Both the position numbers and the translations under genes were made by a program. The notes beneath the pieces are model-generated. The model had not been told where the DNA came from. It made no database searches and was given only the letters and a program-made list of their open reading frames with translations. Below are positions 6,829 through 62,600 of a stretch of DNA of 64,000 nt, piece by piece. Location of the stretch: NCBI RefSeq assembly GCF_963678975.1, contig NC_089275.1, positions 20,976,467 through 21,040,466 on the forward strand, in the 5' to 3' direction. Every line of letters starts with the position of its first letter. The stretch's first letter is position 1. The stretch is from Dysidea avara (taxonomy: Eukaryota; Porifera; Demospongiae; Dictyoceratida; Dysideidae).

Positions 6829-7580
6829 CAAGCATGGGGCAAAGTACATTGAAAAGTATTAAGTAAAATACAAGTACTTTTTGAGATTAATTTACTTAAG
6901 TGTAAGTACAAGTTCATAGTTATGATACAATGCAAGTACTTTTGATAACATTTAAAATAATAAGTAGAAGTACACATTTAAAGAGAAATTACGATTAAAC
7001 CACTCTTATCACTTAGTGTTCAAAATATCAAACTCATGATTGTACATGTACATGTGTGTAGTTTCTACAAACATCAACTGTGCAAACCTGGCATGATAAG
7101 TGGTATATTCAAAGAGTGAATGCCATTTTTTTTTGCTATGCAGTAGTGTGAAAAATTGATATCGTGATAATATCACGTTGGCTGTCCATGAAATCCAAAT
7201 ACACAAATTGTCACATTTATGAAAATGAACTTGTTAGACTGCAGTTAGCTGTGCTACCAACTTTCACTGGCTATACTTTCAAATATGGAGTGTTTTTACA
7301 CATTTTGATTTTCTTGGTCAACCAACCCAAAATCAATTGTAGGTATATAGTATCTCAACAGATCTAGAAGTAGAGGGAGTCCTTATTGCACTTTGACCAT
7401 TAATTCCAATGTCAATATGAAAGGACTTCATTGGACTTCATGTACTTCAAAGTACGTATAAGTACCTCAAGTACCTTAAGTGCATTGCTTAGGAAGTTAT
7501 TACATTAAATTTTGTATTTATAAGTATAAGTACTCAAAAAGGTGTAGGTACTAGTACCAATGTACTTTGCCCCAAGCCTG
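6829..7580. mobile_element. hAT-like MITE, GTACTT-repeat body
   Basis: A 752-bp element flanked by an exact 8-bp target duplication CTATTTAC (6821-6828 and 7581-7588). The terminal inverted repeats start CAAGCATGGGGCAAAGTAC on the left and CAGGCTTGGGGCAAAGTAC on the right. Both subterminal regions are crowded with AAGTACTT-type boxes in both orientations. There is no transposase. The 8-bp duplication and CAG-type end point to the hAT superfamily. Confidence 0.9.
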
Positions 7581-7723
7581 CTATTTACAGCTATGACAAA
7601 AACTAAAACCAAAAGTTAAATGCATTACTAAAATAGTGGTATAAAAAACGTATTATATTAAAGTATGCTGTACTTTGCAAGCAATTCGCAACAATCACAG
7701 TTTAATTTTAGCAGAGAAAATAA

Positions 7724-8952
7724 TTACAACATGCTAATCTGAAAGTACACACAATCATCCTTAACTAACTGATGTGTGGGAGTGATCTTGCAGAGCTTCT
7801 TATTGGATATAAACCTACTTCACCCATTGCCTAATCTACTTTCATCAGGAACCCTGTCAGCTATTTTACATGACATATGATCATGATAAGTAAATGAACG
7901 TGTGTGATGTTCAGTGTCCCCGATCTGATTCAGTAGCTTAACTTCAAATTTTCCTCTCATTGGCCAGGACAGCTCATCATCATATTGACCCTTCTCAAGA
8001 AACAGGAACACTGACATGTGAGTGTATTTAGCATTATCATGGCCTTCAGCATCAACTATACCAAATACATCTTGTATCCTCTAGTGTGGCTGTAGAACGA
8101 GTCACTGCACCAGTCATCTCCTTCTTTATATTCTGTGTACTTAGACATTCTTACAATAACAGGACAAGTCATTGACAATGAAGTGATGTGAACAGAACAG
8201 CATGCTGATATAATCATCTTGTCCCTAGATGTTGTATTCTCACCAATCAAGTAATGCACCATTTCTTCTAAACAATCAAGCCTGCTCTCAGCAGAGGCTA
8301 GTGTGTTTTCTGTCTTGCTTAATTTAGCCTTTGTCATTAGTAAATGTTCCTCCATATGTTCTTCCTCATGTTTCCTCTTGTTCTTGCGCATCATCCTCTC
8401 CCCACACCCCATATTGTGGTACTCACACTGGATAACTTCAAGGGTACACTCCTTCCTGTCTGCCTCCATGTCTTCACAAGGGACACTATCCATTTCACAC
8501 TTGTTGGGACACGGTAGAGGAAGCTACAGTTCTCTCTATGGTCTCCTTCTATGAACCAGTGCTCTCCTGTGATTTGGTAATATTGGCAGTACTAGTCTTG
8601 TTGACGACACGGGCATTCGCTTTCGATATGTGTTAAAAAGTATCTAAAAAATTAGCTTTGACAATCACATCTCCTCCCTTGGTTAGTGCATATCACACGG
8701 AGACCCTTTACTTCCCTATCAGCTTGCTTGTTGGGAAAAATAGGAAATGTTTCATCTCGATACATTGGACAGGCACTTGTAATGCTAGTATACTTTTTTA
8801 CATTATCAAGACATGATTTGCAGAAGGTTTGTCCACAACATGCAGTCATGTAAGGGTCTCGACTTGGACAATCGCATCTTTTGCAGACAAGATGATCTGT
8901 AGATGTGTCAACAAATGTGTACTCGTATCCACCAATATCAGACATTTTAATT
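7724..8952 (-). pseudogene. Decayed TRAF-family gene copy
   Basis: Translated in pieces, this matches the intact TRAF gene at 13360-14664 from end to end. The RING part (SDIGGYEYTFVDT..., 8652-8952) is followed by remnants of the zinc fingers, a segment from EDMEADRKECTLEVIQCEY through the coiled coil into MATH (8056-8475), and the MATH end (about 7724-8017). The parts lie in different frames with in-frame stops. About 40 codons of the zinc-finger region are missing near 8630-8650, and one RING residue pair is altered (CPMYRD in place of CPICQS). Same strand and 4.4 kb from the intact gene, so probably a local duplicate that decayed. Confidence 0.88.
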
Positions 8953-10957
8953 AGCTTACTGCAAAGCAATTAATTAATGTGATAAATTATTGCATAACAT
9001 ATGGCACATTACATTTTAAATACTCAAGTACTCTCATTATTGATTATTTATACAATCTCACCAAGTATACACTTAAGATTATTTATACACTACTTTTTAG
9101 TAAAAGAAGAAAATATTAAACAATATTTGTCTAACACAATAAGCATAATGAAGGAATCACTATTTGTTGCCACAGCTATGATTAATAAATAATTAACTGA
9201 ATGAACTCAATATATTGAGCACTTTATTATAACACTATGTATTGTGAATACAGATCCTGTATCCAGATGTATCCTGGCAAACGATCAACTCAGTTATGGC
9301 ACATCCAAATATTTATCAGTATGATGGTAGTAGTCATATGGTGTAGGGTGAATCCAGAGGATGTACAGGCTCTCTCCATCATAAACTAGAGTATAGATTG
9401 ATATACTCTAATAAAACAGCCGAACACGCAAATTTAAACAGCCATTGCATTCAACACTGCATCCAATTACAACCTGGGTATCATTCACACTGTATTGAAG
9501 TACAGAAAGCTAATGGGCAAATAGAAGACAACAGTTATAATGTACTTTATAGTGATAAACTGTACACTGAAAAAATTGAGGCAAGTCAGTTTAAATTGTT
9601 GTGCAAAGATCAAGATACTAGTCACTACTCTAATAGAACAGTCACAATTTTAATGTCATTAATTCAAAATTATAAGAACATCTTTACCATCACACATGCA
9701 GGTTTCATCTCAGATAAAGCTAACAATAAACATGATGTTTATATAGATGCCTTGCAAATCCTACATTTTGTTAAATAGCTTTCAAAAATGGTCCCAAATT
9801 CAGAAACCTAGGAAATATCATCATGTTTTTTTTTTTCTTTAAAAGATATTCAACTAGAGTTTTGGAATGTATATGCCCTTCATTCATCCAGCTATACCAA
9901 CCAAAGTTATACAAATAAATGTTATAACTTGTGTATGCTCTAGTTACATTATTCTCCTCTTAGTGGAATAAACAGCAAAACTTCTTGCCCCCTTACGGTG
10001 TCTCCTAAATCCACCAATATACAGCTAGGAAATTATAACAGTGAGGCTGTGATGGCACAATGGCCTCGACCTCACTGTTCTATTTACATTATCTTCATCA
10101 CTTGCAATGGTGCTGTTTACATGCATGACTGTGGTCATTGTGTTCCTTCATTATACAGTAGATACACACTACTTTATCACAGTCCTCACAATAGTGCTTC
10201 AGCATAACCATGCTCACTACACATAGAAACTCTTTGGCCTGTACTGGATTAACAGGAGTATCTTCTTTTGGTCTCAGTTACATGAATGTTACTAGTGAAT
10301 TATGATCATAAAATTCTTCGCTATACAGTACCTCCAGTGTGATGTCCAGTCTAGTTCATGGAGGATGCATTAATAATGGGTACATTCAAGACAGCAAGTA
10401 TGTCACAATTGGTCTGGTCAATCAGTCCACACCATAAAAATAACTCTCTAGCTATACTTTATAATAAACAGAGGCTATAATGTTTCTATGCTTTTATGAA
10501 GCTTAGAAATGCTGACCTATTATATGTATCCAGACAGAATTTTCAAGCCCTTGGATAAGTGAAGACAATGCACATTAAAATTTTTCTGACAAATATATTT
10601 CACGAAACACACACTTCAGCTAACCACACATCTTTATGGTCACAATAGTGACAATTATAATGTGTACAGCTATGACATTCTTCATGGCATTTATTATCAC
10701 CTTCAATCAGTAGATAAAGGGGTTAATTGAATCAAAGTGCCAAATCAATAATAAGATACAGCAGTGTGCAAAGCACACTCAACATGCAAACTACAATCTC
10801 TCTAGGAGGTTTGGGGGCATGCCGCCACTGTTAGTTTTAGCTTTCTTTGACTTAGGGCAATTTTCTGTACTAACTGATCTATTAGGACAACTGACTGTTC
10901 TATTAGAGTATCTCATCAGAAAATACTTCAGATGTTGGTATCTGTTGGTATCCCTGA
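8953..10957. other. Intergenic with dispersed-motif copies
   Basis: No supported gene. A 126-codon frame at 9398-9778 has no recognised domain and overlaps copies of the dispersed CTCTAATAGAACAGT motif (9626-9645, and a degenerate copy near 9402-9424). Another copy lies at 10891-10917, just before the next MITE. Confidence 0.5.
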
Positions 10958-11403
10958 TAGGGACCCGCCGATTATGCTGGTATAATTATGAGCATAATAG
11001 GTGTCTGAAAGCATTGAGCATAATGCTAGCATAATAGGTAGAATATTTGTGTAATAGTATGAATTCTTGCTTATCAAAATAGCTTTCACAGAAAGATCGA
11101 TATACTCTAATAGAACAGTCAGTAACTCTAATAGAAAAATCATATAGCTGACTGTTCTATTAGAGTATATCGATCTTTTCTGTGATATGCACTTTGACAA
11201 GTAAGTTTGTGCTGCAGCCACTTATTATTTATCCATAAATTGGAAATTATTAGCAGAGCATGAGAACTGAGGCATAAATAATTGGGCATAATTTGAGCAT
11301 AATGGGTAAGTATTGAGCATAAATTTACGCATAATAGGTAAATTTTTTAGCAGTGCAGCATAGCATAATAGTTAAAATTATGAGCATAATCGGCGGGTCC
11401 CTA
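10958..11403. mobile_element. hAT-like MITE, GAGCATAATAGG-repeat body
   Basis: A 446-bp element with near-perfect terminal inverted repeats TAGGGACCCGCCGATTATGC. The flanks match as an 8-bp duplication with one difference (ATCCCTGA before, GTCCCTGA after). At least eight copies of AGCATAATAGG-like boxes run through the interior. The centre (11091-11182) holds an inverted pair of the dispersed CTGTTCTATTAGAG motif. A second copy of the right half lies at 35276-35452, and a relative at 38260-38664. Confidence 0.87.
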
Positions 11404-13359: not shown

Positions 13360-14664
13360 TTAGACCATGCTAATCTGAAGAAAGACGGCATCGTCTTTTA
13401 TAAACTGACGTGTAGGAGTAACTTCATATAAGCTCTTATTGGAAATGAACCTACAACGGCCATTGCCAGAGTTCCTTCCATCACTGATGACTCTACCAGC
13501 TATTCTATCTGCTGCATTATCACCATAAGTAAATATACGTGTTTGATGCTCATAGTCACTCATCTGGTTAAGCAATTTTACTTCGAATCTTCCCCTCAGT
13601 GGCCAGGACAGCTCAGCATCATACTGACCCTTCTTAAGACACAGGTATACAGACATGTGGGTATCTTTGCCAGTGTCATACCCACCAGCAACAACCAGCA
13701 TAGACATTTGGTAACCTTTGTAGTGGCTGTAAAAAGGGTCGCTGTACCAGTCATCGCCATCTTCTTTATATCTCGTGTACTTTGACATCCTTACTGTAAC
13801 AGGGCAAGTCATCAACATATCAGAAAGATGAATAGAAGACTGTGCTGATACAATCATTCTGTTCCCAGATAATCCTCCATTTTGACTGATGAAATAGTGC
13901 AACATCCCTTCTAAAGCGTCAACCCTGCTATTAGTGCATGCCAATATCTCTTCCGTTTGGCTGTACTTGGTTTTTGTCAGAAGCAAGTGTTCTTGCATGT
14001 GCTTTTTATCATGCATCTTTTTATTCTTGCGTATCATCCTCTCCTCGCATCCCATATTGTGGTACTCACACTGAATAACTTCAAGGGGACACTCCTTTCT
14101 GTGTGCCTCCATGTCCTCACGGAGAACACAGCCAACCCTACAATTGTTGGGGCAGGGTATAGAAATCTTAGGACAGTTGCCTTGATGATGTCCTTCTATG
14201 AAGCAATATTCTGCAGTTACCTTGCAGTATTGGCACTCATGGTCACGATAGGGACATTCACTCATGTGAGCTGACATGTGTTGTCGTTGTAGTGTTTCTC
14301 CACATTCATTAGAGCACTCCACCTCCTCAAAGTTGCAGCTACTCTCAAGATGATCAGTGATGTAATTCACTTTTCCCTGCCACTCACATCCTCTCTCCTG
14401 GTTTGTGCACTTCACGCTAAGATCTTTAACCTCCCTATCAGCCTGCTTGTTGGGAAATGCTTTAAATTTTTTGCTTTGACATATTGGACAGGTAGTCTTG
14501 CGGATATTGTCAAGACAAGATTTACAGAAGTTGTGTCCACAGCACACAGTCATGTAAGGCTCTCGGCTTGGATAATGGCAAATATTGCAGACAAGACGAT
14601 CTGTTGGAGTGTCAATAAAGGTGTACTCATAGCCACCGATATCACTGGTTGTAGCCATTGTCAT
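13360..14664 (-). CDS. TRAF-family RING / zinc-finger / MATH adaptor
   Basis: Encodes 434 aa if read from the ATG at 14664 (MTMATTSDIGG). The frame stays open to 14694, but a TTTTTTTGCAG acceptor-like tract just upstream of the ATG suggests that extension is intron or 5' UTR, and the decayed copy also conserves sequence from SDIGG. Domains in order: RING at residues 26-62 (C26, C29, C42, H44, C47, C50, C59, C62); TRAF-type zinc fingers at about 86-215; a short coiled coil at about 220-260; a MATH/TRAF-C domain at about 275-434. TRAFs are cytoplasmic adaptors and ubiquitin ligases downstream of TNF- and Toll-type receptors. The coding part has no intron. The substrate and receptor are unknown. 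Confidence 0.93.
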   Translation of the reverse strand: MTMATTSDIGGYEYTFIDTPTDRLVCNICHYPSREPYMTVCCGHNFCKSCLDNIRKTTCPICQSKKFKAFPNKQADREVKDLSVKCTNQERGCEWQGKVNYITDHLESSCNFEEVECSNECGETLQRQHMSAHMSECPYRDHECQYCKVTAEYCFIEGHHQGNCPKISIPCPNNCRVGCVLREDMEAHRKECPLEVIQCEYHNMGCEERMIRKNKKMHDKKHMQEHLLLTKTKYSQTEEILACTNSRVDALEGMLHYFISQNGGLSGNRMIVSAQSSIHLSDMLMTCPVTVRMSKYTRYKEDGDDWYSDPFYSHYKGYQMSMLVVAGGYDTGKDTHMSVYLCLKKGQYDAELSWPLRGRFEVKLLNQMSDYEHQTRIFTYGDNAADRIAGRVISDGRNSGNGRCRFISNKSLYEVTPTRQFIKDDAVFLQISMV

Positions 14665-18180: not shown

Positions 18181-18841
18181 TAGAGGTGTACCGATATAAG
18201 AAAACTAAACCAATCCGATATGAGATTTCTCATTTTGAAACTGATCCGATATACCGATATAACTAAATGTAGCTATTTATATTTGAGGAACCACATATTA
18301 ATGTCATGTTCAACTTTATTTTAACTACTGAAGATAGTCTCAAGATTATTGGATATGCTTGGTTACCCATGGTGGTGTGGCCTCTATTGACAGCTCAGAC
18401 TATAAGGCACCCACAAATATTTTAAATACATGCCCCTGACAAGATTAGTTAGATTACTCCATATTTTAATGGCTTGCAAGGATGGCTGGTTGTTTTATGC
18501 TGTGCTCTTGGTTCATCTTATTGCTGTTCCGCCAGGCTCACCACTATGAGTGTTTGTTGTATGATTGGTAACCTTTGTGACAACAAAACAGTGACTATAC
18601 ATGCACTTAGATGGCTTTGGGTAGCATACTGCTTTTGGACAAGGAAGATAATTACTGTTTCCCATCCTTGTATTAGGGTTTATAATGTGGCTTGATCATT
18701 GGACAGTGTCCTCAAGATAGTTCAGTTGTATATCGGTGTATCATATCAGTTTTTAGCAGCAATATCGCCTCCCACCAATATAGTAGAATATTCTATATCG
18801 GCCACCGATACAATATGTATCAGTATATCAGTACACCTCTA
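18181..18841. mobile_element. hAT-like MITE, CCGATATA-repeat body
   Basis: A 661-bp element with an exact 8-bp duplication CAAATGAT (18173-18180 and 18842-18849). The ends are TAGAGGTGTACCGATATA on the left and TAGAGGTGTACTGATATA on the right strand. CCGATATA boxes are repeated just inside both ends (18191, 18212, 18246, 18254; and inverted at 18727-18825). No transposase. Confidence 0.9.
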
Positions 18842-20701: not shown

Positions 20702-21293
20702 CAGGCTTGGGGTTAAATACTTTGAAAAGTATTTAAATACAATACTCTGAAAGTATGAAATACAAAAATAACTTTTACCCAGGATGTATTTGAAATACAA
20801 ATACTTTACAATTGGAGTATATAGACTTCTTGCTATTCTTAGATGATATTATTGAACTAAGGTTTGAATACTCGTACCAAGAGTTCATAATACACAGTAG
20901 AGAGGGAGGGAGAGTGTCCAATGCTGTATCTCCCCTCTCTATATTATGACCTCTTGCTAGTACTTATATACTATTCAACTTCAAAGAAAAGTAAGTTCTT
21001 CATAACTCTTCCCATTTAAAGAAATTGAAAGAAAATAATTAGGATTTGATATATTTTACAGACTAAGGTGTCAATAAGTGAAAGAGATCATCTTCCAACC
21101 AAACAATTTTACAGATTAGGTCATACAGATTCTTTTCCAAGCAAAAGTATTTGAGGTATTTGCAGAAAGTATTTAAGTTTTTACATGAAGTATTTAAGTA
21201 CAAATACAAATACATGTTGTTTCAATACAAATACTCAAAAATAGTATTAAATACAGCTAAATACAAATACTCGTGTATTTGACCCCAAGCCTG
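20702..21293. mobile_element. hAT-like MITE, AAATAC-repeat body
   Basis: A 592-bp element with an exact 8-bp duplication ACTACATC (20694-20701 and 21294-21301). The left end is CAGGCTTGGGGTTAAATAC and the right end, read on the other strand, is CAGGCTTGGGGTCAAATAC. Many AAATAC/GTATTT boxes lie inside. It shares CAGGCTTGGGG with the element at 6829-7580 but uses a different body motif. A 79-bp element is nested at 20878-20956. Confidence 0.92.
20878..20956. mobile_element. 79-bp CAAGAGTT-family MITE, nested
   Basis: The ends CAAGAGTTCATAATA and its inverted partner (CAAGAGGTCATAATATAGAG on the other strand) lie between CTCGTAC and CTAGTAC, a 7-bp duplication with one difference. It sits inside the hAT-like MITE 20702-21293 and so inserted after it. 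Confidence 0.8.
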
Positions 21294-22486
21294 ACTACAT
21301 CTCTAAAGCCTCAAGTAGAACTTAATAAAACATCACAGTGACATGACATCTGCTCATTACATCCTTCCTAGTACCACTGGGTTACCATTCCAGTTGCCAT
21401 ATCATGTACCACGGTAGTGGTACATAATAGGGATCAGGCAGAAATTTTTCAAAACACTCTAATAGAACGCACGCCAAAAGCAGCCTTCCGGGCTTTAGAT
21501 TTTATTTCTAAAACATTCTAGACCTTTCTTTTGTGTTTACAACACTAGCCAACAAGTATTAAAAGTAAGGGAAATGGTTTTAGGTGTTTTTTAAAATTTT
21601 GAAAATGGTTAGATTCTCCATCTTCTTCTTTCTTTCTTCTTTCTTCTTTCTTTCTTGTTTCGCGCGCCTACAGCTCGTAGGAAGTAGATATCAGCCCTAA
21701 AAACGTATGGCGTATTTAAAAAACATTCGTACCCAGGTCTGTGTGGTATTAAAATCTTCCCTCTCTAATGCGATTGCGAGATATAGAGCAAGAATCACTC
21801 TTCGAGACGCCATTCGATCGAGAAGCCATACAGATGATAATATAGAATTGTTTAAAATTCCATTGCTTTAGCTCACAGGACTAAAATGCATCAAGTTGTA
21901 TCACACTAAACATTAAACATAACTATTGCTCACTGAAACTCGGGTTTTAGACTTCCTTCATTACGAGACAGTGAAGGGGGTGTGGCCCGCACCTCGTCAC
22001 TTAAACTATTACTGTACGCCTTTCGTGTATACTTTCTATTATATTCTTCAGCTGTTTACCAGCTAAGAGTCGACATAACAAGGCTTGTAAGTTATTGGAA
22101 CACACTGGTAAATTTCGAATTGAAAAGGGGTGTGTCCCTTCCGTACGCGATTGAAAAATAAAAAGCGGGATGCTCCGTATACTCAGCACTTTAAGTGGAG
22201 TCGACCACGTTTTGTCAAGCATGTGTTTTACTCGTGTTGAGATTTCGCACCCCTTCGTTGCAGTAAACGGTCACACTAGTGGATTTATCTACTCGTCAAA
22301 GGAAAGTGGTATTGTTTACTGTATTGTTAACTGTATTGTTAACTAATTGTTTATTAAACTTATTTATGTAATTGTTTATTGCCAGTTGATATTACAATGG
22401 GTTTCTTTATTAAACAATCATGTACTGTTGAACGTATATTTAAGAAGTAGTCCATGTGCATGGACATGAAAAAAATCATGAAACTA
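21294..22486. other. Intergenic with CT-rich tract
   Basis: No gene. A TTTCTTC-rich pyrimidine tract lies at 21618-21660 and one dispersed-motif copy (CACTCTAATAGAAC) near 21456. Confidence 0.5.
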
Positions 22487-22863
22487 GTGGGGCAAAAAAA
22501 TTATTAATTTTCAACAAGTAGAATAGGGATCAAAGATTTGATTTTGAAAAAAACTGCGTAAACAAGAAGTAATAGGGATGATAATTCACAAAATTCTATG
22601 CATCATCAGTTCAAAGCAAGTTATTTGTATAGTGTACACTCAATTTGCGATTCCTATTTCAACTTGTGGTTAAATTTTGTTAAAATGTTGAAATAGGAAA
22701 CGCAAATTGAGTGTACACTATACAAATAACTTGCTTTGAACTGATGATGCATAGAATTTTGTGAATTATCATCCCTATTACTTCTTGTTTACGCAGTTTT
22801 TTTCAAAATCAAATCTTTGATCCCTATTCTACTTGTTGAAAATTAATAATTTTTTTGCCCCAC
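22487..22863. mobile_element. Near-perfect palindromic element with TA flanks
   Basis: A 377-bp inverted repeat. GTGGGGCAAAAAAATTATTA begins the left arm, and the right arm is its mirror through about 175 bp with almost no differences. The loop is about 30 bp near 22655-22690. TA lies on each side (22485-22486 and 22864-22865). Non-coding. The high arm identity implies a recent origin or arm correction. Confidence 0.82.
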
Positions 22864-23640
22864 TAGTATATATATATATATATCCACTTCTTCTACCTAT
22901 CCACAAGAAAAAGTGATTGACTTGAAACCACTCCAAGAAAATTCATTGTTTCTTCCCGCTCACATGCAAATTCTCTTCCACATGCATGGTTTTATTCATT
23001 AGGCCCCTATTTGGTGATTATTAATTTCATCCAGCCTTTCTAATTATTATGATGCGGGCGGGAGGGTATTACCATTAGGCCATTATTTTATAATATTAAC
23101 ACACTGATGTATAGACTTTGTCTAAATTGTTTTTCTTTCTTACTACAAACATTTCCTTCACCAGCTGATTCTACTCTTCGTGATCGCAAACTGTTTTTCG
23201 ACAGTCAACTGAAAGCCCACTGCTTTGATAAAGTCAATAGAACATGATTGCAACAAGGTGGATCCACTGCAGCAATTTGATAAGGAAAGCAACAGTTCTC
23301 CTGGCGATACATACTGCATTGTAGCATTCATCAACAAAAAAATATAACAATTTGGTATCATGTGTACTTCTAAGCATGCACAGAGTAAATAATGGCTTAC
23401 CATGCGGTAGCCTCAGAAGGATGTGGGCGGTGGATGAGAAACTAATAATCACCAAAATAGGTAGTGTCTAATCACTGGACTGGCATTTTTTTGGTTTTAC
23501 ATGTTTTTAAGGGTGGGATTACTGTACATTTGGGTGGCTTGTACAACATTTCAGCACTGAGTGGTATTTTAATCTTACAAAGTAGCTGTGATAAGCCAAT
23601 TAAATGCATTTATATTCACTGCTACTCTACTGTATGGTAG

Positions 23641-24302: not shown

Positions 24303-24521
24303 ATATGGCAGTTATGTATACCCAAAAATGTTTCTCTCACTACATGGTTATTGCATGTGATACAACTTTCTATAACATACATGGTGTAGTGTGTGTGTGT
24401 GTGTGTAGTGTGGTGTGAAGGGGGGGGGTGAACACACAAACTAGATCCCATTGCATAACTGGTTATTACTAGAATGAAATGTCTGCGTTCTGCAAATTGT
24501 GCTACAATACCACCAAAATAG

Positions 24522-26203: not shown

Positions 26204-26440
26204 CCAAAATAGGGGCCTCATGCAGTAAACTGAATATTTTATTCACTATTTATCACGTGAATGTGTAGCAGTTGTACATAGGAACTATTTCTAGCAATAA
26301 CTCAGTCACAACCCATGGAGCTTTTACTGTATGATTTCATGCCCTTCATAAGTTTATGAACTGCCGGCCGCACGCATTCAGTTTTGAGATTTATGACATA
26401 TGGGAAACAATGAATTCTCTTGGAGTGGCCTAACTAAGGT

Positions 26441-27560: not shown

Positions 27561-28098
27561 CTTTAAGGTAGAAGCATACCCTGAAAACACATAAAAATTT
27601 TTAGCCTTTCATGTAATTATATTATCAAGTTCTAGGGAAATTACATTATTGAGGTTGGAAAACGGTGGGCGTGGCTCAGTTTTTGCTCTATAGACACAAA
27701 TATAGCTTGAAAATTGCACCATTATAGCTCTTTTTATGTATCTTACCTTTCATCAAACTGCTTCAGTCTTTTTTGCTGTCTATATTGAAGCAAGCTTAAC
27801 TAGACTACGCATAAATATTAATAATTTTTGTCTTTGTTTGTGAGCGGTGCATGGACAAACACAGTAACCTCGATCCCACGGTGTTAAACATTGTAAACAT
27901 TATCGCAATACTTAAATTATGCGCTACATTGCTGTTTGTCATGTAAACATTAGTGCTGAAATCTCATTGGTTTGTTATCATTTCCTGTTTACCCAAAATT
28001 TCGGGAGACGACGCGATTTATTTTCCCATCACGTGATACTCGCCGATGTGATGATTCGCTCTGTTTTTCGGGCTGTTTGTCGACCGTTCTGAGTAGCA

Positions 28099-32005: not shown

Positions 32006-32129
32006 TATTGGATTAGATTTCACTTCTTTTTGTATTTGTATACCCCAAAGCCGGCCATAGGCCGGCTTTAGGGCTTTTTAACCTATCATTTTTTCCTTTA
32101 CCACAGGAAGAAGAAAAGATGAAGCAGGG

Positions 32130-34014: not shown

Positions 34015-34016
34015 TA

Positions 34017-44432: not shown

Positions 44433-44938
44433 TAGTGTTGGGAGTAGCGCGTTACATAATATTATTACTTTTGTGGTAACTAAGTAATATAACGAAATAC
44501 ACTATAAAAACAGGTGATATAACTCAAGTTACTTCACTTACAAATGTAACACATTACTTAAGTAATATAGTTACTGTAACGAATCTAATATTATGTAATA
44601 TTATTACTACAAGTAATGAAGTTACTAATCTCGTTAGTTATCCTCTGAGTAACGCCTAGCCACAACAAAGTAACGAAGCCTACTGAATGAAGCTTATTCA
44701 CCAGCTTCTTACTGATAACCAATATTTGCACATTGTCCAACAACGCAATCATGTCACTTGATAAAGTGGTAGTTTCACACGTGACAGCTTAGGCTGTGGA
44801 CACAAAGTAATATAATATGTAATATTATTATAGTTACTTTATTTTATGGGTAATATGTAACTGTAACTAAATAGTTCTGTTGCAAGTAATATGTAATATG
44901 TAACTAGTTACTTTTACAAAGTAACTTGCCCAAAACTG
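44433..44938. mobile_element. hAT-like MITE, GTTAC/GTAATATTAC-repeat body
   Basis: A 506-bp element. The left end is TAGTGTTGGGAGTAGCGCGT, then TAC; the right end on the other strand is CAGTTTTGGGCAAGTTAC. The flanks ACTATAAT and AGTATAAT form an 8-bp duplication with one difference. TTAC/GTAA boxes occur throughout both halves. No transposase. Confidence 0.87.
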
Positions 44939-45367: not shown

Positions 45368-48300
45368 TCACGCTTTTATCACTTGGAGACGGTCGTTTCC
45401 ACTCTCAGTAACAAAAACAGTTCCCACGCTGTTGACTGCAATACCTTGTATGCCATTGAACTGTCCTATTCCTTCTCCTTTAGAACCCACCATGTAACTG
45501 CTTCCAGCCTTTAGTACAACAAGTTTGTGGTCATCTCTGTTGTCAATTAGTATATGCTCTGCAGGAGTGAGAGCAATAGCCAATGGCCTAGTACTGCATA
45601 GTATTGAATCAATGAAGTCACCATTTTCAAAATATATGTTGATACAACTATTTGTGGGACTCCAGTCAGTAACAAAAACTCGGCCATGCCCACTAATGGC
45701 AACATCAGTTGGGCGAAACAACTTCCCTAGATCTTCACATCCAAACATATGGGAAAACTCATTTCTTTCATTAAATACTTGAATACGATGGTTACCACTG
45801 TCTGCAACAAAAAGAAAACCTCTCGAGTTAAAGCACAATCCTTGAGGCAGTTGAAACTGGCCTTCTTTAAAGCCATGGCTTCCAACCTTAGATAGGTAAT
45901 CACCTTGCAAGGAAAATAACTTTACTTCATGATCTCTCCATTCACTCACTGCTATAGTATTGTGGCCTACAGCTACACCTAAAGGATAGTTCAGTTTACT
46001 ATCTCCACTGCCATGACCAAATGAAGTCACAAAAGTCAGGCTTTTGTCAAATATAACTCCCACGTGGTTTTTCTCATCAATCATGACCACCTCATCGTTG
46101 GTACCAATGGAAATACCACATGGACGCTTCAATGATTTCCCACCGTATTCTGTGATCGTTTGACAATTTGCTTCTTTCAACTTGGAAAGGTCTTTCAGGG
46201 TTGCAGATACACTATGGAATAATTATAATTATGCATAATGCCTGCATATAGCTACATGAATACATACACACATTATGCTGCAAAATCCTAAGTATATAAA
46301 CACATATACCATTTAAACAAATTTGCTGCTGACTTCTGTACCATGGATCTGAAAACAGACAAATTTCTGACAAATTGCTCATTTCCAAACTCTATTGAAA
46401 GGATTTGATGGGCCATCATGTTGTTTAGGCTTGCAAGATTGTATGTACGGAGCTTCTCCTAGCAGTTAGTAGAATAAACTTTAATGCACAGCTCAAGCAG
46501 TAGTAGGGTTTCCCTTACACTTTGAAGCTACACAATATATCAATGCCAACCCCTCTGCTGTACTGAAGCACCCCATAAAATTAACTATGACATGACAAAA
46601 CACCTATGCAATATGGCTGTGACAAGCAACACTCAGGTTATTCAGCACAACAGGTGCGCGATCGCGAAGTTCAGTACATTTTTTCTATATGGTATATTGG
46701 TGTGTCCAGTCAACTACATGTTTGTCCAACCAATTGCAAGGTTGTCAGACACTTATATAAACAAAGCCATCCTATTATACATCACCTAGGGTTGCACTGT
46801 TTTAGTTACTATTCTAGTTATATAGCAGCACTGCATTTCTATATCAAGATACAGTTACTATAATTATAGAGTTCACATACTGTTATTATACAGTAACAGA
46901 TACAATAGGATCTTGAACCCTGAACAGTATATGTGACTGTTTTATTAGAGTATTTTGCTCAGGTTTTCAAAATTTGCTGATGTATATGTCACCATTTTAA
47001 AAGTATTTCATTTGATATTATTGTGATTGACGCAAACTGTACAGATGGTAATTTGTATGATTTACCCATCCAAAAACAGCTTATAGCTGTAAAAAAAGTG
47101 CGCGTCCAGGTAAAGCAGAGTTAACTGCAACAAAAAGTAATGATATCATAATGCGGCCATGTGCGAGGTGTGCAAGTTGTAAAATTAATATTAGCTAATC
47201 AGATAGTACAATGTTATTGTTAACGTGTTAATGAGAACTATGTGATGCTGCTAGTTTTTAAGTGTGTGAGCATCTTCATAAATGCCACATAAATTTAATT
47301 CTCAATAAAGCAATGTGTATAGATTCTCTGATAGTAATAAATAGTTTGAGTTTGGCCACCTTTCCTTTGTTCGTAGCATTGCTGTATACAGGAAAGGCGG
47401 CCAAACTCAAACTATTTATTACTATCAGAGAATCTATACACATTGCTTTATTGAGAATTAAATTTATGTGGCATTTATGAAGATGCTCACACACTTAAAA
47501 ACTAGCAGCATCACATAGTTCTCATTAACACTTTAACAATAACATTGTACTATCTGATTAGCTAATATTAATTTTACAACTTGCACACCTCGCACATGGC
47601 CGCATTATGATATCATTACTTTTTGTCGCAGTTAACTCTGCTTTACTTGGAAGCGCACTTTTTTTACAGCTATAAGCTGTTTTTGGATGGGATTTCAATA
47701 CTTTTTGTTAGAATAAGCAATGCACTGTTGATAACAGTAGGTGAGTTTCCATGGTTTTGACAGAAACTGCAGATTACAGTGACAGAATATTAAAATATAT
47801 CTGTAATTTTAGTGGCCAGGGCCTCCCACATTGGGGGTAACTGGGGTATTTTGCCCCCTACCACAGCCCGAAAGGGGCCACCTGAATACCTGTTTAAAGA
47901 AAGATTGATATACTCTAATAGAGCAGTCAGGATCTAGACCCTTCCTTGCCCCTGGGCCCCTCTTTAACTCTTTTCCCTGGGCCCTCTAATTTCTCTGGAC
48001 GGCCCTGTTAGTGGCATGCAACTGCAGTCAACTAACACCCATTTTAACTAGTAAACCCTTAACAACACTTTGCCTTTCATCTTGTACTGCATTGAAACAA
48101 TCAAGATACTCTATTAGAGCAGTCACAAAACAGCTGTAACACAGCAATCAATATTTAGCATAGTTACAACTTCTGCTTAGCATCGGATTGTATAGTTTAA
48201 ATTACTAGCTACTTACAGACTTTACAATATAAAAATATGGCACTTGTAGAAATGTGACTGTTCTATTAGAGTATCTCGATCTACTTCAAGCATTTACTAA

Positions 48301-54300: not shown

Positions 54301-57300
54301 TAAACACTCAGGCCATAACTCAAGACAACATGGTAATCTTATCACAGTGTCATATTTCACATATGGATTAAAGTATACTATACCGATCAATTGTATGTTT
54401 TTATACGTATATATTATAGTGCAAAACTGAACATAGCTAACAAGCACACACGATTAATTGAAATACTCAAACAGCCTGAGAGTAATCACACATATCTAAA
54501 GGAAGACCTACAGTAGTTCCATAACACTAATGCTTTGTGATATTTAGGTAAATGAAAGATACTGGCACACAAAGCATGTTAATCTAAGGTGTCTGAAGGC
54601 ACATGGTTGTGATTTTAGGTTAGTATCACGATTGATACTAAGCCAACTATTCACAATGCAGAATATAGCACAATACTTACACATATTACAATAATTTCTG
54701 GTGCTACATTTTGCATAGCTCAGCATTCCTGCAGGAAGTCTTTCTAGGTGGCACCAAAATAGCCACTATCATCCTTGTAACAGTAAGCTAACACAACAAT
54801 ATTGCTCAGCCCTAACGTATAAATCAGACCTCAGAATTTGAATCTGAGAGAGATTTCAGCAGTTAACAAATTAGAATGTTATAAAGACACATGGCAGTGT
54901 GTCATGCGACCAAGAAATCTGGTACACCACGTCACACTGTAGATATATTGCAGGAAGAAAGAAAATGCGTGCATAACTCCATGGTTCCCACTCTAAAGCA
55001 CACATGCCATTTTTACATTATAGCTGTCCACCAGGCCTTACACCAACTTTGATTGAGATCACTCAAGCCATTCCTCAAGCCATTTGTGAGATACAGTATG
55101 GGCAGAAAAATTGTGACCAGATTTTACAAAACTGATCCTACTAAAAATCTAGTCATGATCTATTTCATTGGTTTACCACTGAAAATTCTTATGCACATTG
55201 TATTTAGAAGTCCTCAAAATGTGTGTTCATTACAAAACTAAACCAAGTACAACTACAACTTCCATTTTGAGCGCTATGAAATATATTGGTAAAATCAAGT
55301 TCAAAAGTCAGCACTTTATAAAATTAACTATCAATCAATGTACAAAAAAGATGTGGCCATAAAGTAACTTGGTTAAGAGTACTAGCCAAGATCTGGCTGT
55401 AATGATGTTAAACTTTTGACCACTACCAATGTTTCTTAAGTCAGGTGTTTTCAAAGCTGAGCATGCATGAACTCTTTTCCGTGCCAGTTTTGCATGGATT
55501 AACCTTAGTGCAACTGATGATGGTTCTATTAGGGTATCTCAATCTTCTTGTTTACAGTAGTGCAATATTGATGCCTCCATGGGCCTGGACCACAATTGAA
55601 CAGTACTGGATACACCACTGAGCAAATGCTGCAGTACATAACATTTACAAAGAAACACATGTGCTTTATGTGACCTATTGGAGCTCAAAAATTTAGTTAA
55701 ATAAACTGTTAAAGGGGGGTTACTATTCAGTGGACTGGACTACTGGACTGGAACACTGGACTGGACTACTGGACTGACATATTTTTTGGTTTTTGCACGT
55801 TCTATATGGTTGGATTTATGGAGTCTTGCTAGTAAGCACCCTTAGGGCACCTGCAGCCCACTTCTAAATGCTGAAGATGAACAGTGGAATACGCGAAAAC
55901 TGTCTCTTAATATTTTCGCTGCTGTTTATTATGCCACTATACAACACTTATTCCTTACCCTGGTGTGTAGTAATTGAATGTGACAGCAATAGTTAACCAG
56001 CAATCATCTAGCCAGTAGACAATATCTTTCAAGATATCCTTAGAGCAAGCTTGAGGAGCAAGCTAGTCTCGCCAGTATGGCCAGACCTCTACTCTAGACT
56101 TGTCTCTAGTTCAGTGCAGGGGCTTACCAATTAGAGATTTTTCAGTATGGGCACTTATAATCTTTAACTGATAAGCCCCTGCACTGAGACAGAAGTCTGG
56201 CAGCGAGACTAGCTTGCTTGCTCCTCAAGCTTGCTCTAAGGATATAACTCAAAGGATACCGTCTACTGGCTAGTTGATTGCTGATTAACTATTGCTGTCA
56301 CAATCAATTCCCTGCACTGCCTGCAGCATTACTATACACCAGGGTAAGAAATAAGTGTTGTATAGTGGCATAATGAACAGTAGCAAAATTATCAAGATAA
56401 GAGACAGTTTTCGCATATTCCATTGTTCGTCTTCAGCATTTAGAAGTGGGCTGCAGGTGCCTTAAGGGTGCTTACTGGAAAGACTCCATAAATCCAACCA
56501 TAGAATGTGCAAAAATCAAAAATATGTCAGTCCAGTAGTCCAGTCCAGTGTTCCAGTCCAGTAGTCCAGTCCACTGAATAGTAACCCCCCTGTTAAAGCT
56601 ACTGGCATGAGTAGGAAGATAATTTATTTAACTGTATAATAATTATATGAATCCACACAAGGAATCTGGGATTCTAATTAGCTGTGTATATTGATGGGAG
56701 CTTGCATCTACATATTGATGACCAGGGGGTTCTATAGAATTTTATGGAACTCTCTCCCTTTTTTCAGAAGAGCCTTATCACATTTTGGTTGAGGCATTAA
56801 TTTGGTGAATTGTATAACATTTATTATTAGATTATTAAATTTCAATTCATAACAGTCTCGTGGGCCTCACCACAATTACGCACAACAAATTCATCTAATT
56901 GCAAAAATAATCATTGCTTTGTTGATGTATTACTACATGTTCCTCTCTATTATTAACTCTTGGTAACAGTTACAGTACATAAACAAACAAGGCTAAGGGT
57001 CCAAAGTTGAGTAGTGATGATTACTTACTATTACGCACCATACCACCATTCCTCAGAGTGGAAGCCACAATTTAATCCACCCTTAGGTTTGCCTGATGTA
57101 TGGTATAAACACATACATACATAGATACTTACTAAAAAGGGCTACCAAGTAGAGGTACTCCTCCTGCTTGTACTGAGACTGTGTGATCACCTCCTATTTT
57201 GGGAGTATAGGACACTTCATAGCAACCATCTCTGAGTTCTTTTACTTCATCTGTAGTGGTGGTTGACCGAGCCATATTGTAATACTGGATTTTGACATGT

Positions 57301-58526
57301 AGCTGATCGGAAATGCCACTAAGTGCTCGTTCATTGGTATCCTTTAGCAGAACTGAAAATGTACTGGGCGTATTCACTGGAATCTTTTGCTTTAAATTTC
57401 TTACAGCACAATTGATTGGACTAACAAATGTTCCTAATTGCAGTAGAGAATTTTTTATATCTGCCAAGCTGTAAAAATTAATTTCTGTTTGTTGTTCAGC
57501 ACTTGGTTTGACTATTACTTTACTCTTCTCTGCTTTCAAATGAGCACCCCTCTCCAGTATAGTAGCTCTCATAGACACGATATCCTCTTTCACACCTTGT
57601 TGAAGTTTGTCGTCGGTAAAGTCATTGCACCTTCTCAACTGATGCAACAAAGAGATCAACTTATTTCTTTGGTCCTGCAAACTTTTATCCCGTTGATTAG
57701 CATCATAAGAGATATTATTTTGTAATTGCTTTTTACGCTGGTTGAGAGTAGTTTGAATGCTATCAAACATTTCATCCAGTTTGCGAAGATTTTCAGCTTT
57801 AGCTTTGTTTACATTTACACTTTCCCTTTCAACCTCATCAGCAGCTGTTTCAAGTTCTTTGATCTGTTGCTGAACACCTGGTAGCATATTCTCCAGGATT
57901 TTCTTTTCATTGCTCACAAAAGTGTCGTCTATCTTCACATATTGGTGACTTGTGTGTTTACTGGAAATACATTGTTCGCAGGCTAGCTCGGTCTTTTGCT
58001 GACAGTAAAGGTCAAGTGATTTCGTGGAATGGGTGGGGCACATTTTGAAGCTGTCTGGAACAATCGGTAAATCTCCTGTGAAAGTTCGCATATCTTCCAG
58101 CAGTAACACTTTGGCATGATTCTTCGTAGATATAGCACGACCGTGTGCACTTAAACACTCTTTACAAAGCAGCGTGCGACATTGTAGGCACAAAGCGTGG
58201 GCAACGACTGTCGCGCAAATCTGACATCTCGGTTCAGCTTTTTTATTGAGCATTTCCACCAAGTGCACAGTAGACATATCTGTTATAAGATCCTCTACTT
58301 TTAGTGGTATAGAAACTATTTCTTTGCAAACTGGACATTGCAGCCTTTTCCGGTCGTTGTTCAGGCTACTTCCTGCCGCCTCCCCGGAACTGCTAGTAGA
58401 AAGCTCCTCTTGCAAACATTCCGCGCAAACTAGATGGAGACAGGGCAACAGTTTAGGATTAATGAAGAACTTGCTGCACTTCACACAATGTAGCTTTTGT
58501 AGAAAATCTTTCCAAATTGATGACAT
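45368..58526 (-). CDS. TRIM-NHL protein A (exon 1 57133-58526; exon 2 45368-46211)
   Basis: Two exons encode about 745 aa. Exon 1 ends ...GSPF plus two bases before GTAAGT; exon 2 begins after CATAG with one base, then VSATLKDLSKL. The phase and the residues rebuilt (GSPFYVS) match the paralogue at 59647-63067. Domains: RING (C14, C17, C29, H31, C34, C37, C64, C67), two B-boxes (about 100-145 and 160-200), coiled coil (about 205-330), filamin repeat (about 365-468) and NHL propeller repeats (about 490-745, with GVAVGHN, VADSGNHRIQVF and VTESGNDRLQV). This is the TRIM2/3/71 layout: ubiquitin ligase with a propeller that can bind RNA or protein. The 10.9-kb intron is repeat-filled. The exon pairing is inferred, with no transcript. 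Confidence 0.85.
47065..47691. mobile_element. 627-bp near-perfect palindromic element
   Basis: The arms (about 47065-47365 and 47391-47691, near 300 bp each) are inverse copies with only a handful of differences. The centre is near 47378. The ends are CCCATCCAAAAACAGCTTAT and its mirror, continuing to GCTGTAAAAAAAGTGCGC. The sequence following the right end (GATTTCAATACTTTTTGTT) resembles that after the foldback at 31716-32005, so the true element end may lie further out. Two identical 72-aa reading frames on opposite strands are by-products of the symmetry. Confidence 0.83.
50418..50593. mobile_element. TA-flanked MITE, CAGTGAAACCTC ends
   Basis: A 176-bp element flanked by TA (50416-50417 and 50594-50595). 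The left end is CAGTGAAACCTCACTTAGTG and the right end, inverted, is CAATGAAACCTCATTAATAT. The interior repeats AATAAG(A/G)CCACCT. Mariner-type MITE. Confidence 0.8.
51537..51877 (+). repeat. Two-copy direct repeat with central hairpin
   Basis: 51537-51684 and 51731-51877 are diverged direct copies sharing GCACACTTC, ACCG(C/T)AGTTGT, GTCATTCTTTAA and ACGTGGGGGCGACTAA. Between them CCATAGATTA...TAATCTATGG forms a hairpin (51701-51728). No coding evidence. Confidence 0.65.
52744..52908. mobile_element. TA-flanked hairpin MITE (GGAATTTTCTAAGG ends)
   Basis: A 165-bp inverted repeat. GGAATTTTCTAAGGATTATA on the left pairs with the right end (GGGAATTTTCTAAGGATCAT on the other strand). The arms continue through ACAAGG(A/G)AG(A/G)TCACC and CACCTGCAGAT to a loop near 52825. 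TA lies on both sides. It shares GTAGTGAAACAAG with 16216-16420. Confidence 0.78.
53267..53904. mobile_element. TA-flanked MITE, AACTTTGGC-repeat body, with a captured-looking insert
   Basis: A 638-bp element between TA (53265-53266 and 53905-53906). The ends are CTGTATAGTAAAAAACTTTG on the left and CCGTATAGTAAAAAACTTTG on the right strand. AACTTTGGC/GCCAAAGTTT boxes fill both subterminal parts. The middle (about 53350-53660, minus strand) reads as protein-like sequence (SSRGYHIYQSIWPNPL). Confidence 0.83.
53350..53658 (-). pseudogene. Possible HIRAN-like gene fragment inside a MITE
   Basis: The minus-strand frame contains VFTFPVNSSSRGYHIYQSIW, similar to the RGYHVY..W opening of HIRAN-type domains in invertebrate proteins. 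A second frame just downstream reads GKPVGNSIPKS, where such domains have a GxVxGxxP segment. Short, frame-shifted and enclosed by the MITE ends, so at best a captured, dead fragment. The family match is from memory and weak. Confidence 0.3.
55715..56589. mobile_element. 875-bp foldback element, GGGGGTTACTATTCAGTGGA ends
   Basis: An exact 9-bp duplication CTGTTAAAG (55706-55714 and 56590-56598). Inverted arms of about 400 bp begin GGGGGTTACTATTCAGTGGA and continue through CTGGACTGGACTACTGGACT repeats. The centre has an inner hairpin with CTAGTCTCGC...GCGAGACTAG (about 56063-56213). It shares ATTCAGTGGA and (TGGACTGGA)n with 24522-26203. Non-coding. Confidence 0.88.
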
Positions 58527-59511: not shown

Positions 59512-59646
59512 TAACGGTTCACGACGCATTATTTTATTGTGCATTGTTACAGCGTACTGCATGTCTATTAAAAGATGAAAAAAACAACTAAATCATGCAA
59601 ACACAGAACAAGTATAAGTAGTCATAGCCACACTCAATATTTGTAT

Positions 59647-62600
59647 TCAAGGACGAATGACTTGCAGGCGATCATTTCCACTCTCAGTGACATAAATAGT
59701 TCCATTACTGCTTACAGCTATACCCTGTATATAACAAAATTCTCCAACTTTGTTTCCTATTTCCCCAAACATGAAAGTCTTTCGTGGATTGAATGTATGG
59801 ACGACCACTTTGTTCTCAGCATCATCACTTACTATTATACAGTCATCAGGGGTGATAGCGATAGCCAATGGCTTACCAGTGCAGTTAATTTTAGAAATAA
59901 ATCGGCCATTTTCATAGTACATTTTGATACAACTCTCAGAACTCCAATCGGTCACAAATACATGGTCACGTTTGCTTATGGAAATATCACAGGGATTGTG
60001 CACATATCCTGGACCTTCATTGCCAAATTTGTAGGAAAATTCATCTTGCTCATCAAAGACTTGTATACGGTGATTATCACGATCTGCAACAAAAAGCAAA
60101 CCTTTTGAACTAAAGCATAATCCCTGAGGTCTGATGAATTGGCCATCTTCTGAACCAGCTGAACCAAGCTTGGATAGGTAGTCTCCTTCTAGAGAGAATT
60201 TCTTTACCACATGTTCCTCGTCTTCGCTGACTGCTATGGCATTGTGACTTACAGCCACACCTACAGGATTGTTCAGTTTATCATCTCCATGTCCTTGACC
60301 AAATGTGTGAATAAGAGACAGATTTTGGTCTAGTATAATTCCTTCACGGTTAAGTGCATCAACTATTACAACTTCATCATTGAGACCAACACAAATACCA
60401 ACTGGACGTTCAAACTTCTTCCCACCATAATGTGTAACTAGTTGGCAATTCCTTTTATGCAATTTTGATACATCTCTTAGAAGGGCTACCGACACACTGT
60501 AAAGGACAAATTGTACTAAATACATACACATGTGCATGGTCCTGGAAGCAGTAAAGAAGCATGAAACATGTGTTTGATTAGAAAAAAGTAATGAAAAAGG
60601 AGGTTATCTATATCTACAAGGACAGTAACCCAATAGGCAACTTTTCATATCATTTTGATTTTCAAAAACTTAAAATTCCTAATTTTTCCTTTTTGCTTGT
60701 TTGTTTAATTTTTGGTAACAAAGTGGCCATCCTGCTTTGTTTTCAGCTATGTTCAGCCTGTTACACAACATGTTCAGCCTGTTACACAACATGTTCAGCC
60801 TGTTACACAACACGTTCACCCTGTTACACAACATGTTCACATGGTTACACAACATGTTCACCCTGTTACACCAGTGTTGAAACCGGGTCGGGTCATCCGG
60901 GTCACATTTTCTCCGGGTCATCCGGGTCTGACCCGGTTTACAATTTATCCGGGTCTGACCCGGATTGGATCACGTGAGAAACGAAATTGTTCGTTTGACG
61001 ATGTGGAAACTTTCAACACGAATCGAACGCTCAAAATGTAGACTCGTTCGCTCGCTCGAGACTAGCCGAAACACGTCTCGGCTTTAATTAATCCGGGTCA
61101 CATCCGGGTCAGTAGGTCATCCGGGTCAGCAGTAGTGACCCAGTTTCAACATTGTGTTATACAACATGTTCAGCCTGTTACATAGCATTATACAAACAAA
61201 GAACAGCACGAGAAGCGTCTCTGCAATCAGTTCAGTCACTGTGGAAGTGTGGATGATAAACGTGGTAGCTATAAGGCACTAGCCATCATGAACACACCTT
61301 GTACTGTCAGTGAAAAGAAATGGGACAAAACTAAGTCCATGATGTGTGCATTGTATGTACTGCATGTGGTATGCCAAAGGCACCTGTCAGTTGAAGCAAT
61401 GTCTAGCAGTACAAAATCAAGCCTGTATATAGCCTTTGAGTTACACTTGAATGTCTGAAGGCATTAGTAAGTTATTCAGTTAGGCAGCAGAAAATTCCAC
61501 TTAATAAAATAAAAATTAGCAACTTACTGGTAACATTTTAGTCACACTGGTCTGGAAGGCATTGACTATACCTAAACAATACTTCCAAGGTACCATGAAG
61601 GTTGGTTTCTGGTTAATGCTATTTAGTGAGAATATGCAAACCTAATATACAGTAGTTGCACGATAATAAAACTTACTGGAAAGGGCTACCCAATATGGGT
61701 ACTCCTCCTGCATGTACTGAGACTGTGTGATCACCTCCAATTTTGGGAGTATAGGACACCTCATAGCAACCATCTGAGAGCTCTTGTACTTTAGCACTTG
61801 TGGTCAGTCGGTTCATGTTGTAATACTGTACCTGAACATCTAGCTGACTGGAAATTCCAGTGAGTGCATTGTTACCAGCATCTTTTAACACAACTGAAAA
61901 TGTATTGGTTGCATTTAGTGGAATTCTTTGCTTTACACTTTTCATTATGCAGTTTTCTGGGCTTACAAATGTTCCTAAAAGCTTAATAAATTTCAATATT
62001 TTCTCTTGACCGTAAAAATTGAGTTCTGGTTGTTCTTTAGTAATTGGTCTAAGTGTTTCCCTATTCTTTTCGGCCTTCAATTGAGAACATCTCTCCTGCA
62101 TAGTGGCTTTCATAGACAATATATCTTGCTTAGTACCTTCATGAAGTTTTTTCTTTGTAAAATTATTGCAACTTTGTAATTTGTAAGACAAACTAAGAAG
62201 CTCACTTTTTTGTGTTTGTAAATACTTTTCACGTCGCTCTCCATCTTCATTGATATCATCTTGTAGCTGTTTTCTTCGCTGACTTAGAGTAGTTTGAATA
62301 CTATCAAAAGTTTCATTCAATTTGTGGAGGTTTTCTTCCTTAGAGCTCTTCACTTTCAAACACTTTCTTTCAATAGAATCAATGGCTGCCGTAAGTTCTT
62401 CAACCTGTTGTTCAATGCCTGAAAGAATGTTCTCCAAGGTCCTCTTCTCATTGTAGATCAAAGCATCGTCAATCTGTATACAGTTATGACCTGCATGTCT
62501 ATCAGTGGTACATTCTTCACAGACTAGTTTACCGTCCCATTTGCAGTATAAACTAAGTGGTTTTGTGGGATGGGCGGTGCACATTTCATCAAGCTCTGGA

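Follow-up and report, generated by a model that had tools for sequence, protein, structure and literature searches.

Seven putative hAT-type MITEs with motif clusters near their ends in a 64-kb window

Seven short elements of the window (the whole 64-kb stretch of DNA analysed) are very probably non-autonomous hAT-type transposons (MITEs) with subterminal motif clusters; since E2 and E5 are relatives (80–83% identity across some 90 bp at each end), they fall into six motif classes (Table 1). All seven are present where the original prediction placed them. With sizes of 283–752 bp and a longest stop-free run of 88 codons (computed over E1–E6), the elements are short and non-coding, as MITEs are. 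The 8-bp duplications, the short tips of the CAG/TAG type, and the arrays present at either end support the hAT-type identity read from the sequence. A second copy within the window, truncated, is seen for the E2 family alone.

Table 1. Putative hAT-type MITEs, their subterminal arrays, and related features (window coordinates; no strand assigned).
Feature	Position	Details
E1, putative hAT-type MITE, 752 bp	6829–7580	tips CAAGCATGGGGC / CAGGCTTGGGGC; 8-bp duplication CTATTTAC, exact
E1 left subterminal array	6842–6973	core AAGTAC, 7 copies
E1 right subterminal array	7442–7567	core AAGTAC, 6 copies
E2, putative hAT-type MITE, 446 bp	10958–11403	tips TAGGGACCCGCCGATTATGC at both ends; duplication ATCCCTGA/GTCCCTGA (7/8)
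E2 left array	10972–11034	core TTATGC, consensus about CC.ATTATGCT, 4 copies
E2 right array	11272–11389	7 copies, all same strand
Second E2-family copy	35275–35452	left end absent; 96% over 178 bp; right tip intact
E3, putative hAT-type MITE, 661 bp	18181–18841	tips TAGAGGTGTAC[C/T]GATATA; duplication CAAATGAT, exact
E3 left array	18192–18260	core CGATAT, 4 copies
E3 right array	18730–18800	core CGATAT, 3 copies
E4, putative hAT-type MITE, 592 bp	20702–21293	tips CAGGCTTGGGGT; duplication ACTACATC, exact
E4 left array	20715–20804	core AAATAC, 7 copies
E4 right array	21147–21280	core AAATAC, 11 copies
E5, putative hAT-type MITE, 405 bp, E2 relative	38260–38664	tips TAGGCACCAGCCTATTAT / TTGGCACCAGCCTATTAT; duplication CATGTTAC, exact
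E5 left array	38294–38339	core TTATGC, 3 copies
E5 right array	38577–38650	core TTATGC, 4 copies
E6, putative hAT-type MITE, 506 bp	44433–44938	tips TAGTGTTGGG / CAGTTTTGGG, weakest terminal repeat; duplication ACTATAAT/AGTATAAT (7/8)
E6 left array	44476–44625	core AGTTAC, 4 copies; shorter GTTAC extends to middle third
E6 right array	44832–44926	core AGTTAC, 6 copies
E7, putative hAT-type MITE, 283 bp	60872–61154	tips CAGTGTTGAAAC / CAATGTTGAAAC; duplication TGTTACAC/TGTTATAC (7/8); within 21-bp tandem array
E7 left array	60883–60963	core CCGGGTC, 7 copies
E7 right array	61093–61127	core CCGGGTC, 3 copies
E8, candidate, 191 bp, absent from the original prediction	47817–48007	tips CAGGGCCTCCCA / CAGGGCCGTCCA; exact duplication TTAGTGGC

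The elements were predicted to be hAT-like MITEs with 8-bp flanking duplications and short terminal repeats. All seven have 8-bp target-site duplications as in hAT elements, exact in E1, E3, E4, and E5, while those of E2, E6, and E7 match at 7/8 positions. The terminal inverted repeats, short and of the CAG/TAG type, as in hAT elements, extend over 14–21 bp with few mismatches in E1–E5 and E7, and over about 10 bp in E6; departures from CAG/TAG are seen at the right tip of E5 (TTG), the left tip of E1 (CAA), and the right tip of E7 (CAA). Scripted ranking of boundaries put those of Table 1 on top for E2, E3, E4, E5, and E7, and tied that of E1 with an alternative lying 8 bp more internally; that of E6 was set by eye, the script placing other boundaries above it. 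The register of the tandem array around E7 is preserved if the 8 bp are counted as a duplication.

A blind scan for exact 8-bp duplications with 14-bp terminal repeats yielded ten matches vs. 0, 0, 0, 0, and 1 in five shuffles; these are E1, E3, E4, E5, and six matches within large palindromes at 47 and 56 kb. Since other duplication lengths also exceed the shuffles (at 6 bp, 22 matches vs. 0 in all five), the 8-bp length shows no unique excess here. When the search was tuned to hAT-like tips, seven matches came up at 8 bp vs. 0, 0, 0, 1, and 0 in shuffled sequence (E1, E2, E3, E4, E7, one palindrome artefact, and the new candidate E8), two at 7 bp (shuffled, 0, 1, 1, 0, and 1), and one at 9 bp. 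E5 and E6 escaped this tuned scan, and E6 escaped the blind scan as well. In a window search for solitary tips, the sole exact match, cross-matches among the elements aside, is the E2 copy at 35437; the remaining matches carry 2–3 mismatches, and no element was seen at the two of them that were inspected (19070 and 34221).

Motifs were counted as originally predicted, with AGCATAATAGG shortened to GCATAATAGG and the outer 22 bp left out. Each element carries 3 to 16 copies vs. shuffle means of 0.00–2.36, and its count was reached in 0 of 1000 shuffles for all seven, which bears out a motif density above that of shuffled sequence. Same-length windows elsewhere never reached the count for six of the seven elements; that of E2 was reached in 6 of 1144, due to the truncated second copy. 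The motifs are class-specific, each being densest in its own element(s). In a motif-free test, the most over-represented interior 6-mer recurs in the outer 30 bp of all seven elements (counted without a null); 6-mer scores above 6.7, the 95th percentile of 564 background windows, are reached by E3, E4, E6, and E7 only, those of E1 (6.6), E2 (6.3), and E5 (4.9) being lower, while three palindromic control elements score 7.4–11.1. For candidate E8, GGGCC occurs in five copies vs. a shuffle mean of 1.38 (10 of 1000 shuffles reach five) and no enriched 6-mer was found in its sequence; its subterminal array is doubtful.

It had also been proposed that the families share an end framework and differ by a swapped motif. 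This is weakly seen for E1 and E4 only, whereas E2 and E5 have both framework and motif in common, and the letters common to E6 and E7 (CAGTGTTG) are too few to show descent. E1 and E4 have a common 11-bp tip, CAGGCTTGGGG (44 bp at 79.5%, E = 5.7e-5), yet opposite ratios of AAGTAC to AAATAC, 13:3 in E1 vs. 2:18 in E4 (Fisher's test, 2.2e-5), and AGTACT to AATACT is 6:1 vs. 2:11 (p = 0.0044); both comparisons use one copy of each element, and the p-values are overstated, because sites inside one array are not independent. Such a pair makes it possible, if only tentatively, that the recognition code was switched, the tips being kept and the motif replaced array-wide in step with the BED domain of the transposase; the single copies and the post hoc choice of motifs weaken this, as does the similarity of the arrays past the tips, no better than in shuffles. 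There the E1/E4 alignment scores 37 on the left and 28 on the right, below shuffle maxima of 44 and 33, hence, site-by-site homology of the arrays was rejected and site-by-site replacement is unsupported. The fuller scenario, in which E1 and E4 would be sister hAT families with retained tips that changed the whole array from AAGTAC to AAATAC and lost cross-mobilisation because of this one-base core switch and a matching change of the BED domain, is rather unlikely. If the difference holds at the family level, the two would form a natural pair for studying changes in BED zinc finger specificity, and would bear on how families of the same genome avoid mobilising each other's copies. Such questions of specificity are usually addressed by comparison of distant elements.

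Contrary to the proposal that the element bodies are built from the motif, which would fill much of each element, the middle thirds hold only 3 of the 69 copies, each of these in E6 (3/15; 0 in the other six). Core motifs, chosen after inspection of the data, are no more than 150 bp from a tip in 75 of 76 cases, with densities of 44.3, 40.0, 23.4, 1.7, and 0.0 per kb at distances of 0–50, 50–100, 100–150, 150–200, and >200 bp, respectively, and their copies occupy at most about 6–25% of an element (copy count times core length). Subterminal repeats, called a defining feature of hAT elements in PMC4890040, are thus present at both ends of each of E1–E7. Inner core copies are all on the same strand at both ends of E2 (9/9, p = 0.0039) and E5 (6/6, p = 0.031), two biases that are not independent, the elements being related; the bias is not significant in E1 (8:3), E4 (10:6), and E7 (7:2), and is absent from E3 (3:3) and E6 (5:4). 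Strand asymmetry of the Hermes type, significant in this related pair alone, was therefore rejected as a general trait. Helical phasing of the cores, with a pooled statistic reached in 149 of 5000 randomisations (weak and uncorrected), was set aside.

It is very improbable that the arrays arose as by-products, with no binding role, of slippage or local tandem duplication in the end regions. Short tandem units do occur in E2, E4, and the second E2 copy (period 21–32 bp, about 2–3 copies), and background windows with tandem repeats match the elements on the motif-free score; however, repeat finding detected such arrays inside E2 and E4 only among the elements, the core copies are in both orientations in six of the seven elements (tip copies included) and irregularly spaced, the arrays occur at both ends and cease about 150 bp inward, and the bases flanking the core are mostly unconserved between copies, the exceptions being CC.A and T at the E2/E5 core, AT at the E7 core, and C at the E3 core. 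Since conservation drops beside the core and few tandem arrays were found, the copies look like separate sites. That these sites serve host proteins, e.g., transcription or chromatin factors, rather than a transposase is very unlikely and has nothing specific in its favour, as in every element the motif adjoins or enters the terminal repeat, and it differs by class, which fits element-specific proteins over shared host factors. What is seen directly comprises the duplications and tips, the enrichment of the motifs and their restriction to the end regions, and the conservation of the short core alone between copies.

Under the preferred reading, binding by transposase, each MITE would keep what a hAT transposase needs in cis, i.e., a short terminal repeat, with cleavage there, and, over the outermost 100–150 bp at either end, clustered short sites, oriented both ways, which the N-terminal BED zinc finger would recognise. 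The transposase, supplied from another place in the genome, would bind the cluster cooperatively and, once bound, pair the ends and insert the element with an 8-bp duplication. By analogy with other hAT elements, the cores are probably BED-domain sites, and separate transposases may mobilise the classes. As no transposase was found (neither hAT nor BED domains in the 38 of 45 window ORFs scanned, ORFs of at least 95 aa), we infer mobilisation by hAT from structure alone. Exact-pattern searches gave zero matches for the tips of E1/E4, E6, E7, E2, and E3 in viral_contigs and for those of E2 and E6 in genome_contigs, and an 870-aa window protein and a 28-mer repeat gave no relatives in viral_contigs; these zeros say little, since exact patterns miss diverged copies and the collections cover viruses, bacteria, and archaea. 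Among the matches listed from one open-access library, none dealt with these families or with a motif switch of the E1/E4 type.

Among the known systems, Hermes has subterminal repeats bound by BED domains, antisense at the left end and sense at the right, with AAG(T/C) as the BED site (PMC10368747). Many copies of a short core near the tips, in both orientations, and the single-strand bias of inner copies in E2/E5 resemble this arrangement; unlike Hermes, the elements are non-autonomous, the core differs in most classes, and the strand bias is not general. The AAGTACTT of E1 is the palindrome just inside the Tol2 tip, and the 150–200 bp required at Tol2 ends match the fall-off of core density seen here (PMC10368747); Tgf2 has 17 and 18 copies per end vs. 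3–11 here (PMC4890040), and elements other than E1 differ from Tol2/Tgf2 in tip sequence and motif class (PMC10368747, PMC4890040). Coral CMITEs, with TTAA duplications and a piggyBac-like look (PMC2872659), were rejected as a comparison, and the Mar paper (PMC3517528) contributes only a cited title that concerns the subterminal motifs of a pogo-type MITE. Herves, a hAT element, offers a further likeness, as one short, transposon-specific motif present at its two ends suffices for binding by the transposase (PMC3143072); there, the motif is CG/AATTCAT and the element is autonomous. A precedent for hAT MITEs is given by the Buster1 MITEs of a flatworm and insects (366–449 bp), which, according to PMC4298943, are hAT-derived and non-autonomous and carry a repeated short subterminal motif, such repeats serving to distinguish hAT transposons; their motif, TGGGTCGCG, is described as tandem and their tips are CAGGGCTTCTTAAAC. 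On present evidence, the seven elements are one more hAT-type MITE set with an already known end architecture.

All seven hAT-type MITEs (E1–E7) are located in the window where originally predicted (Table). Each carries one short subterminal motif, the core (picked post hoc, one per class), with 75 of 76 copies lying at most 150 bp from a tip and the remaining one, the deepest, 187 bp in; over the outermost 50 bp the density is 44.3 per kb, dropping to 0 past 200 bp. The motif had been described as filling much of each element, but only 3 of 69 exact copies of the predicted motifs are in a middle third, all within E6; short elements such as E7 appear filled because both end zones almost meet. 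Since the bases adjacent to the cores are mostly unconserved between copies, and tandem-repeat finding yields only 2–3-copy units, within E2 and E4, the copies resemble individual short sites, not duplicated blocks.

The predicted motifs were compared with shuffled sequence, and none of 1000 shuffles reaches the observed count in any of the seven elements. From E1 to E7, there are 11, 3, 4, 16, 4, 13, and 9 copies (outer 22 bp excluded; E2 and E5 counted in the shortened form GCATAATAGG) vs shuffle means of 0.85, 0.00, 0.02, 0.83, 0.00, 2.36, and 0.08. In a motif-free test, the top 6-mer recurs in the outer 30 bp of all seven elements; judged against 564 background windows, the score lies above the 95th percentile in E3, E4, E6, and E7 only, not in E1, E2, and E5, and three palindromic control elements score 7.4, 8.8, and 11.1. 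Hence the shuffle counts show the stated motifs to be clearly enriched, but by the motif-free scores the enrichment stands out less once all 6-mers are in competition.

The 8-bp flanking duplications are exact in E1, E3, E4, and E5; in E2, E6, and E7, only 7 of 8 bases agree. The boundary script tied E1 with an alternative and scored other boundaries of E6 above the correct one; the E6 duplication boundary was taken by eye from the sequence. E7 lies within a 21-bp tandem array, whose register is preserved across its flanks provided that 8 bp were duplicated. A blind scan of the window for an 8-bp duplication with a 14-bp terminal repeat gave 10 matches (0, 0, 0, 0, and 1 in shuffles), namely four elements and six matches internal to palindromes; other duplication lengths are likewise in excess, e.g., 6 bp (22 matches vs 0 shuffled). 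Scanning for hAT-like tips yielded 7 matches at 8 bp (0, 0, 0, 1, and 0 in shuffles) and found five of the seven elements, missing E5, whose right tip is TTG, and E6. It also revealed an eighth candidate. Here, GGGCC occurs in 5 copies vs 1.38 expected (10/1000 shuffles) and GGGGC in 4 vs 1.26 (13/1000); AGGGCC is not enriched (360/1000), and the 6-mer test shows no signal. The candidate may belong to the hAT-type MITEs yet lack a clear array of core copies near its ends; if so, such tips are not always accompanied by arrays.

A shared end framework with a swapped motif, as if a recognition code had been switched, was also predicted, with the motifs proposed to have diversified in step with cognate transposases. 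This fails for E2 and E5, which have the motif as well as the framework in common (80–83% over ~90 bp at each end). The sole hint of a switched code inside the window comes from E1 and E4, which share a tip plus 44 bp at 79.5%, and whose arrays are one core base apart, the AAGTAC:AAATAC ratio being 13:3 in E1 and 2:18 in E4. However, both are single copies, the comparison was made post hoc, sites inside each array are non-independent, and the end alignments beyond the first 11 bp do not exceed shuffles (37 vs a maximum of 44; 28 vs a maximum of 33). No relatives turned up in the sequence collections scanned, which are unlikely to contain them.

The evidence is drawn from the 64-kb window and the literature. 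The window is eukaryotic, judged from its gene content, with proteins of RING/B-box/filamin, NHL, and TRAF/MATH type identified by domain search; both duplicated gene pairs show 72–87% identity, in pieces. The 872-aa frame, with no Pfam match at E 0.001 (best 0.08) and no relative in viral_contigs, could, by eye, encode a transposase-like protein. Two further elements with exact terminal repeats are possibly Mutator-like. The near-perfect palindromes have arms 98, 99, and 95% complementary and loops of 10–23 nt. A dispersed short repeat, TGACTGTTCTATTAGAGTAT, is seen at 18 places in the window at ≤3 mismatches (100 shuffles average 0), often followed by CTCGATCT; the outer flanks of its copies show no visible homology. 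It forms a palindrome within E2, has one copy inside the eighth candidate, and gives 0 matches in viral_contigs.

Table. Features of the window, with coordinates counted from its start
Feature	Position	Strand	Details	Source
MITE E1	6829-7580		core AAGTAC	
MITE E2	10958-11403		core TTATGC	
MITE E3	18181-18841		core CGATAT	
MITE E4	20702-21293		core AAATAC	
MITE E5	38260-38664		core TTATGC	
MITE E6	44433-44938		core AGTTAC	
MITE E7	60872-61154		core CCGGGTC	
Eighth candidate	47817-48007		exact 8-bp duplication, CAGGGCC tips	hAT-like-tip scan
Further element	24521-26204		exact 14-bp terminal repeats, 7-9 bp flanking duplications (CCAAAATAG)	blind scan
Further element	55714-56590		exact 14-bp terminal repeats, 7-9 bp flanking duplications (CTGTTAAAG)	blind scan
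Near-perfect palindrome	47065-47691		arms 302 nt	
Near-perfect palindrome	22483-22867		arms 181 nt	
Near-perfect palindrome	31717-31992		arms 133 nt	
TGACTGTTCTATTAGAGTAT repeat, example copies	9625-9644, 10892-10911, 11102-11168, 32809-32828, 48255-48274			
Tandem array	32125-32747		31-bp unit, ~20 copies	tandem-repeat finding
Tandem array	37280-37460		22-bp unit, ~8 copies	tandem-repeat finding
872-aa open frame	28093-30711	+	internal 123-nt repeats	
Reverse transcriptase-like fragment	4625-4975	+	PF00078, E 1.6e-6, slightly below curated cut-off	
Tandemly duplicated gene pair	7851-8773, 13490-14492		TRAF/RING/MATH type	
Tandemly duplicated gene pair	57127-58361, 61671-62902		RING/B-box/filamin type	

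Of the 45 window ORFs of ≥95 aa, 38 were scanned, and none gave a hAT or BED domain (threshold E 0.001 in part, E 0.1 for the rest); the other seven run antisense to longer ORFs, and exons <95 aa lay outside the scan. We infer that the cores are bound, and E1–E7 mobilised, by a hAT transposase. In the cited papers, subterminal repeats are called a defining feature of the hAT superfamily, with 17 and 18 copies in Tgf2 (PMC4890040); Tol2 requires 200 and 150 bp at its ends and has AAGTACTT directly inside the tip (PMC10368747); the motif bound in Herves is a different one, and differing motif sequences are said to secure specificity (PMC3143072); Buster1 hAT MITEs have a repeated motif in the subterminal regions (PMC4298943). 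The architecture of E1–E7 closely matches the end organisation of Tol2, Tgf2, Herves, and Buster1. The elements are real and their basic identification as hAT-type MITEs was correct, but the account of their bodies went too far; the architecture is a known one, to which E1–E7 add further members.
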